From Eublepharis macularius (taxonomy: Eukaryota > Chordata > Lepidosauria > Squamata > Eublepharidae): a DNA stretch of 64,000 nucleotides. Each line of letters opens with the position of its first letter. The first letter of the stretch is position 1. Both the position numbers and the translations under genes were made by a program. The notes under the pieces are model-generated. The model was not told the origin of the DNA and made no database searches. It saw only the letters and a program-made list of their open reading frames with translations. Location: assembly GCF_028583425.1 (NCBI RefSeq), contig NC_072793.1:173577681-173641680 (forward strand), in the 5' to 3' direction. Positions 27,407 to 41,376 of the stretch are shown here, in pieces.

Positions 27407-27430
27407 ATGGCTGCCTTGGAGACTGATCAG
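27407..27430 (+). CDS. Gene C exon 1: short leader
   Basis: GAGATGG start context, eight residues MAALETDQ, donor CAG|GTAAGG, phase 0. It matches gene B exon 1 in length and ending. Confidence 0.7.

Positions 27431-41376: not shown

Follow-up and report, generated by a model that had tools for sequence, protein, structure and literature searches.

A KRAB-C2H2 zinc-finger gene of Eublepharis macularius with a probable TRIM-derived 5' half

KRAB zinc-finger proteins (KRAB-ZNFs) recruit TRIM28, itself a TRIM protein, and thereby silence transposons. Some of them carry an additional module at the N-terminus. SCAN-KRAB-ZNFs possess a dimerisation domain in front of KRAB and the C2H2 fingers, and DUF3669-KRAB-ZNFs (ZNF746, ZNF777, ZNF282 and ZNF398) have an extra, oligomerising module in the same place (PMC6923878, PMC6745500). 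In the same two papers, oligomerisation is described for KRAB proteins that carry SCAN or DUF3669, and several of these do not bind KAP1. A dimerisation domain 5' of KRAB is already known. The original prediction had called a TRIM-like coiled coil unusual for a KRAB-ZNF repressor; for an oligomerising N-terminal domain as such, SCAN and DUF3669 are precedents. Gene C, the gene analyzed here, resembles both classes in having an N-terminal module before KRAB and C2H2, for which dimerisation is proposed; however, it has neither SCAN nor a DUF3669 match, and its N-terminal segment is TRIM-derived. On the TRIM side, the closest system is the RING-less pyrin (TRIM20, encoded by MEFV), which has a homologous coiled coil and, like gene C, no RING. 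Unlike pyrin, gene C also lacks the B-box and B30.2, and has KRAB and C2H2 instead. In zebrafish, domain swapping by exon shuffling has produced new TRIM combinations (ftr06 with a chromodomain, ftr52 with RanBD-cyclophilin); the swaps described in the excerpted source retain the N-terminal RING/B-box and change the C-terminus (PMC3137616), whereas gene C appears to have lost the RING/B-box exon and gained a KRAB-C2H2 unit. Our literature search found no TRIM-derived dimerisation domain 5' of KRAB; an earlier description is possible.

The window, the whole stretch of DNA that was analyzed (64 kb, C4:173577681-173641680), belongs to a genome of 2.24 Gb in 72 contigs, and all genome searches were confined to this one genome. 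Gene C was rebuilt from the sequence as nine exons between 27407 and 41376 on the forward strand (Table 1). All eight introns are GT-AG, all eight junctions match in phase, and the frame joined by predicted splicing encodes 681 aa with a lone stop at its end. The nine phase-matched exons that had been claimed for this gene were thereby confirmed, and exons 2-5 as aa 9-161, together with the peptides quoted for them, were present as claimed. In the predicted protein, the TRIM-like segment (aa 9-161) is followed by KRAB-A, KRAB-B and eight C2H2 fingers. A search within the 64-kb window revealed no homologue of exon 1. For exon 6, no convincing homologue outside gene C was found in the window and 48 loci, the best match elsewhere having an E of 0.035.

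Table 1. Exons of gene C and gene B (window positions) and the related loci on contig C4.
Feature	Position	Strand	Length (bp)	Phase	Assignment
Gene C exon 1	27407..27430	+	24	0 out	MAALETDQ (8 aa); basis is a start codon and a GT donor alone; least certain exon
Gene C exon 2	29336..29413	+	78	0-0	start of putative TRIM helix a1; counterpart of 96-bp TRIM exon
Gene C exon 3	31724..31936	+	213	0-0	coiled-coil exon of TRIM type; TRIM similarity over about aa 1-45, diverged beyond
Gene C exon 4	32441..32576	+	136 (23+113)	0-1	TRIM 23-bp and 116-bp exon counterparts (L2, helix a4) combined
Gene C exon 5	33409..33441	+	33	1-1	putative end of helix a4; matches MEFV exon 8 in length and phase
Gene C exon 6	35549..35667	+	119	1-0	Pro/Ser-rich linker, bridge to KRAB
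Gene C exon 7	35809..35935	+	127	0-1	KRAB-A
Gene C exon 8	38218..38313	+	96	1-1	KRAB-B (aa 244 onwards), assigned by eye
Gene C exon 9	40157..41376	+	1220		spacer; C2H2 fingers, 8 of them intact and two more degenerate (by eye); C-terminal tail
Gene B TRIM exon-4 type exon	20794..20909	+	116	2-1	
Gene B C2H2 exon	21587..23349	+		1	in phase with exon 20794-20909
R167+	C4:167.275-167.288 Mb	+			exon 3, exon 4 (113 bp), KRAB-A, C2H2; one strand, gene C order
R154	C4:154.263-154.274 Mb				exons 2 (84 bp), 3 (234 bp) and 4 (116 bp); candidate 33-bp exon; C2H2
R167-	C4:167.262-167.254 Mb	-			exons 3 (207 bp) and 4 (113 bp); candidate 33-bp exon; C2H2

The introns of gene C contain several repeats. 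Two copies of one element, 88-96% alike in pieces and in opposite orientation, lie in introns 2 and 7 (31013-31570 and 36274-36738). The element has inverted repeats at its termini and short tandem repeats inside, and looks like a non-autonomous DNA transposon. Intron 2 also harbors a 5S rRNA-like stretch at 29476-29592 (+), which scores 48 bits with Rfam RF00001 and is probably a SINE derived from 5S. The frame of exon 3 stays open beyond its donor (31937-32176, +), in a stretch that we take to resemble the final part of a LINE reverse transcriptase. The open frames at 12763-14453 (+), elsewhere in the window, presumably resemble a LINE reverse transcriptase as well.

A TRIM-type coiled coil had been proposed to lie 5' of KRAB-A/B and the fingers, and several lines of evidence supported this. 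When aa 1-201 of gene C were searched against the PDB, pyrin/TRIM20 was the best match (8sdj, 5.5e-4; 4cg4, 6.5e-3) over aa 10-75; the remaining two of the four matches with E up to 10 were unrelated enzymes (0.85 and 1.1). The paralogue at R154 matched PDB pyrin at 9.3e-6. With a profile built from pyrin, TRIM5, TRIM69 and TRIM75, aa 9-161 scored 26.4 bits, and 5000 shuffles reached 13.6 at most; TRIM similarity is thus present in residues 9-161, the part in which its absence had been named as evidence against the proposal. Among the 2190 open reading frames of the window, the same profile placed exon 3 at the top (17.2 bits, next 2.8). A second profile, made from 15 exons of TRIM type in this genome, found exon 3 at 5.7e-12, the next of the 2190 frames having 0.077. 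With an exon-4 profile made without gene C, the window frames below 0.01 were gene C exon 4 (4.3e-5) and the gene B exon (1.1e-4), followed by one at 0.55. The 15-exon set includes four loci whose neighbourhoods were inspected, all with RING and B-box and three with SPRY downstream; the other 11 were assigned on exon sequence alone, and some of them may therefore belong to other architectures.

Exon borders were compared with those of MEFV, whose exons we take to be 96, 231, 23, 116 and 33 bp long. With these presumed lengths the phases of gene C agree with MEFV (96/231/23+116/33), exon 4 of gene C (23+113 bp) corresponding to the 23- and 116-bp exons without an intron between them. On the same presumed borders, the exon 2/3 boundary precedes KQTEA in gene C and pyrin alike, and exon 3 matched pyrin better than any of 5000 shuffles, while exon 2 was weak, 73 of 5000 being as good. 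Exons 4 and 5, each taken alone, were not significant, since 239 and 385 of the 5000 shuffles did equally well; exons 2-5 together were again unequalled (0/5000). Exon 5 has the 33 bp of MEFV exon 8, of which the start is likewise presumed and the end, c.1759, follows from the equation of IVS8+8C>T with c.1759+8C>T in the excerpted source (PMC6877695). The coil exons of fish finTRIM genes measure 96 and 234 bp, followed by 154 and 60 bp, as given in an excerpt of PMC2657112; the gene C exons (78/213/136/33) are shorter and show the same phases, 0-0, 0-0, 0-1 and 1-1. TRIM-type exons elsewhere on C4 begin and end at points equivalent to those of gene C, and an exon of 113 or 116 bp that begins in phase 2 is present at three paralogous loci as well as in gene B.

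Coiled coils have a compositional bias in common, and Pfam yielded no TRIM model for the gene C coil, as might be expected if the similarity reflected convergence rather than descent. The silence of Pfam is, however, uninformative, since human pyrin, too, obtains no TRIM model for its coil region, and Pfam was hence rejected as a test of TRIM homology. Composition-preserving shuffles fell far short of the observed score (13.6 against 26.4 bits) and exon ends and phases coincide with those of TRIM-type exons in the same genome, so convergence is scarcely credible. By these comparisons the TRIM-like segment of gene C is homologous to TRIM coiled coils.

In TRIM20, residues 414-586 form an antiparallel dimer. 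Its four-helix core, close to the two-fold axis, consists of a1, a1', a4 and a4', while the B-box is held in position by L2 (PMC4455283). Scored by halves, gene C exon 3 reached 49.9 bits in the N-terminal and -1.2 in the C-terminal part, the best of 2000 shuffles being 10.7 and 11.4, respectively; the TRIM-like stretch comprises about the first 45 of 71 residues. An AF2 model of exon 3 alone, from the single sequence, predicted a helix at 2-45 with mean pLDDT of 91, 98, 98 and 86 over residues 1-40. After a fall to 57 at 41-50 and a short break, a second helix at 51-70 was predicted with low confidence (60-73). The modelled break after residue 45 agrees with the profile result, and the low-confidence second helix leaves room for structure in the C-terminal half. 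The reading of exons 2-5 as a TRIM coil consequently stood for the first 45 residues or so of exon 3 and for a weaker exon 4-5 helix, and failed for the C-terminal part of exon 3. Since that part is without score, any dimer would be shortened. By alignment, gene C retains the a4 segment (exons 4-5) and, in the numbering that we presume, a1 from about TRIM20 residue 427 to 497, which reaches to about aa 79 of gene C; it has lost similarity in the remainder of a1 and in L2. The retained segments would correspond to parts of the central four-helix dimer core of TRIM20. The diverged parts adjoin, or are, what positions the B-box in TRIM proteins, in keeping with a loss of the B-box.

The fusion may be real and transcribed while its shortened coil no longer dimerises and serves as a spacer or a weak interaction surface. 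The TRIM signal covers only about 45 of 71 exon-3 residues, AF2 confidence falls at the break, and the C-terminal signal is gone at three of the four loci that combine a coil exon 3 with zinc fingers (coil-ZNF loci), all of which would fit such a spacer. The N-terminal part, however, scores 26-50 bits at all four of these loci (best of 2000 shuffles, 10.7), and the segments that were kept align with the TRIM20 core. We hence consider loss of dimerisation rather unlikely, and favor a short TRIM-derived dimer.

RING and B-box patterns were absent from the window (64 kb), R154 (40 kb, including about 8 kb upstream of exon 2) and R167 (70 kb), together 174 kb. The same patterns were detected at all four ordinary TRIM loci used as a control; they require intact domains, and damaged remnants could for this reason escape. 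An upstream RING/B-box exon for gene C was rejected, as no intact pattern was found. A SPRY search with pyrin B30.2 as query gave no match at E up to 0.5 in any of these three regions, and found SPRY at three of the four ordinary TRIM loci.

With gene C exon 3 as the query, the genome yielded 25 matches at E up to 10, including the window, and 20 of these lie on C4 at 155-167 Mb. Neighbourhoods were inspected for 7 of the 24 matches outside the window, namely three coil-ZNF loci and four ordinary TRIM loci (R1643, R1665 and two in R1626). TRIM-coil exons are joined to C2H2 at no fewer than five loci (at least gene C, R167+, R154, R167- and gene B). The anticipated existence of more than one gene with this layout was corroborated within this genome, gene C and R167+ both carrying TRIM coil, KRAB and C2H2. 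The KRAB-A exon of R167+ at C4:167285126 is 127 bp long with phase 0-1, identical to gene C exon 7; a bridge exon was looked for at this locus (C4:167.28 Mb) and not found. No KRAB match was obtained between coil and fingers at R154 and R167-, nor near gene B; hence KRAB is not a constant partner of the TRIM coil. Exon 2 of R154 is 38% identical to that of gene C (E 0.20), and R167+ and R167- showed no exon-2 counterpart at E up to 0.5. A scan for the 33-bp exon gave plausible candidates in gene C, R154 and R167- and none in gene B; the best candidate at R167+ scores as that of R167- and reads unlike the others. Candidates for the 23-bp exon pattern numbered one at R154, two at R167+ and one at R167-. 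Gene B and gene C have a C-terminal tail in common (39% over 36 aa, E 1.35e-6). Exon 3 contains W at all four coil-ZNF loci, where 14 of 15 TRIM-type exons have F, one has Y and human pyrin has L. A tree computed from 50 columns of 20 coil exons united the four coil-ZNF rows with modest support of 82/81 (81% of 200 bootstrap trees). Silent exceeded replacement divergence (pS > pN) in 12 of 12 comparisons, which cover six pairs of four loci for two exons and are non-independent and partly saturated. Downstream of the R154 C2H2 exon, an exon-6-like peptide (L032 2317-2367, C4:154287317; E 0.024-0.035, which may be chance) is followed about 4 kb later by degenerate KRAB-like sequence (L032 6402-6515, C4:154291402).

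These related loci bear on whether the TRIM exons are merely the relic of a dying TRIM gene 5' of an ordinary KRAB-ZNF, unjoined in the mRNA or joined by rare read-through only. TRIM and KRAB genes do adjoin in the region (at R1665, SPRY at 166539 kb and KRAB at 166549 kb), exons 1 and 6 are without homologue in the searches given above, and the C-terminal half of exon 3 is no longer TRIM-like. Against this, the eight junctions are in phase and stop-free, the order coil-KRAB-C2H2 is repeated at one more locus and coil-C2H2 at further ones, megabases apart, and pS exceeds pN in all 12 of the non-independent, partly saturated comparisons. Nor do the 174 kb contain an intact RING or B-box pattern or, at E up to 0.5, a SPRY, although damaged RING/B-box remnants could be missed. 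A relic is therefore an improbable explanation, and a joined gene is preferred.

The 3' half of gene C is that of a KRAB-ZNF. Pfam analysis of the predicted protein recovered both domains that had been expected, KRAB-A (PF01352, E 1.4e-21, aa 204-243) and zf-C2H2 (PF00096, eight stretches in tandem, all in the 3' exon 9). In the numbering of PMC8835667 (excerpt), mapped by ourselves, the KRAB retains D7, V8, W17, L20, L27, M32 and E34; the A33 position is K, so that MKE stands where the motif reads MLE. No DUF3669 match was found in aa 1-201 at E up to 10, and Pfam detected no SCAN in gene C. The Pfam library presumably contains a DUF3669 model, and its SCAN model does detect the neighbouring gene A (1.8e-40). 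Assignment of gene C to the DUF3669 or SCAN class was rejected, as neither domain was matched. Gene A itself (1865-7487, +), with SCAN, KRAB (4179-4298) and a C2H2 exon, is probably an ordinary SCAN-KRAB-ZNF. A KRAB-A-like stretch with an in-frame stop at 51432-51334 (-), 5' of a C2H2 frame at 48747-47593 (-), is probably a damaged KRAB exon.

We infer from the KRAB that gene C may bind TRIM28 and repress; because several oligomerising KRAB proteins fail to bind KAP1, recruitment of TRIM28 is not to be assumed. The original prediction went further and let the TRIM-like coil self-assemble or pair with TRIM partners; pairing with authentic TRIM proteins, TRIM28 included, would shift the choice of corepressor. 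The TRIM origin of the coil and the general recruitment of TRIM28 by KRAB proteins speak for such pairing. The nearest PDB relative of the coil is, however, pyrin, TRIM28 chains account for none of the four matches at E up to 10, and the TRIM-like helix is shortened, which makes such pairing very doubtful. Dimerisation of gene C with itself is the reading retained here.

Of the 150 KRAB matches that were scored, only four lie outside C4 161-188 Mb; with 837 first-look candidates, the number within it is a lower bound. This interval appears as a very large KRAB cluster with TRIM and SCAN genes interspersed. Exon shuffling within such a mixed cluster would be a natural origin of gene C, TRIM genes and KRAB/C2H2 genes being interspersed on one chromosome. 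RING, B-box and B30.2 would have been dropped and the coiled-coil exons kept, with a linker exon joining them to KRAB-A/B and the finger exon. The predicted protein would dimerise through a short core of a1 and a4 segments, so that each dimer would present two finger arrays and two KRABs; the eight fingers per chain would bind DNA, and corepressors would be recruited via KRAB, with oligomerisation analogous to that of SCAN- and DUF3669-KRAB-ZNFs. We thus consider it probable that gene C is a KRAB-C2H2 repressor gene with a TRIM-derived 5' half, whose product dimerises via a shortened TRIM helical core.

A broader reading is possible, and is put forward tentatively. Gene C may belong to a repressor family, perhaps restricted to squamates, that arose once, when C2H2/KRAB genes of a mixed TRIM-KRAB cluster took up a TRIM coil that had lost its RING/B-box exon; its coil would be a third independent dimerisation module of KRAB-ZNFs, and its members may pair, by helix pairing of the TRIM type, mutually or with genuine TRIM proteins. 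If true, this would link the TRIM immune repertoire with transposon silencing. A group of KRAB-ZNFs equipped with a dimer helix of TRIM origin would amount to a natural experiment uniting both families. It would provide KRAB-ZNFs with a third oligomerisation module next to SCAN and DUF3669, and would show mixed TRIM/KRAB clusters yielding new regulators through exon shuffling. It makes testable whether dimer modules free KRAB-ZNFs from TRIM28 or tune them to it. Taken together, these results suggest a new kind of paired gene-silencing protein that evolved from two neighbouring gene families.
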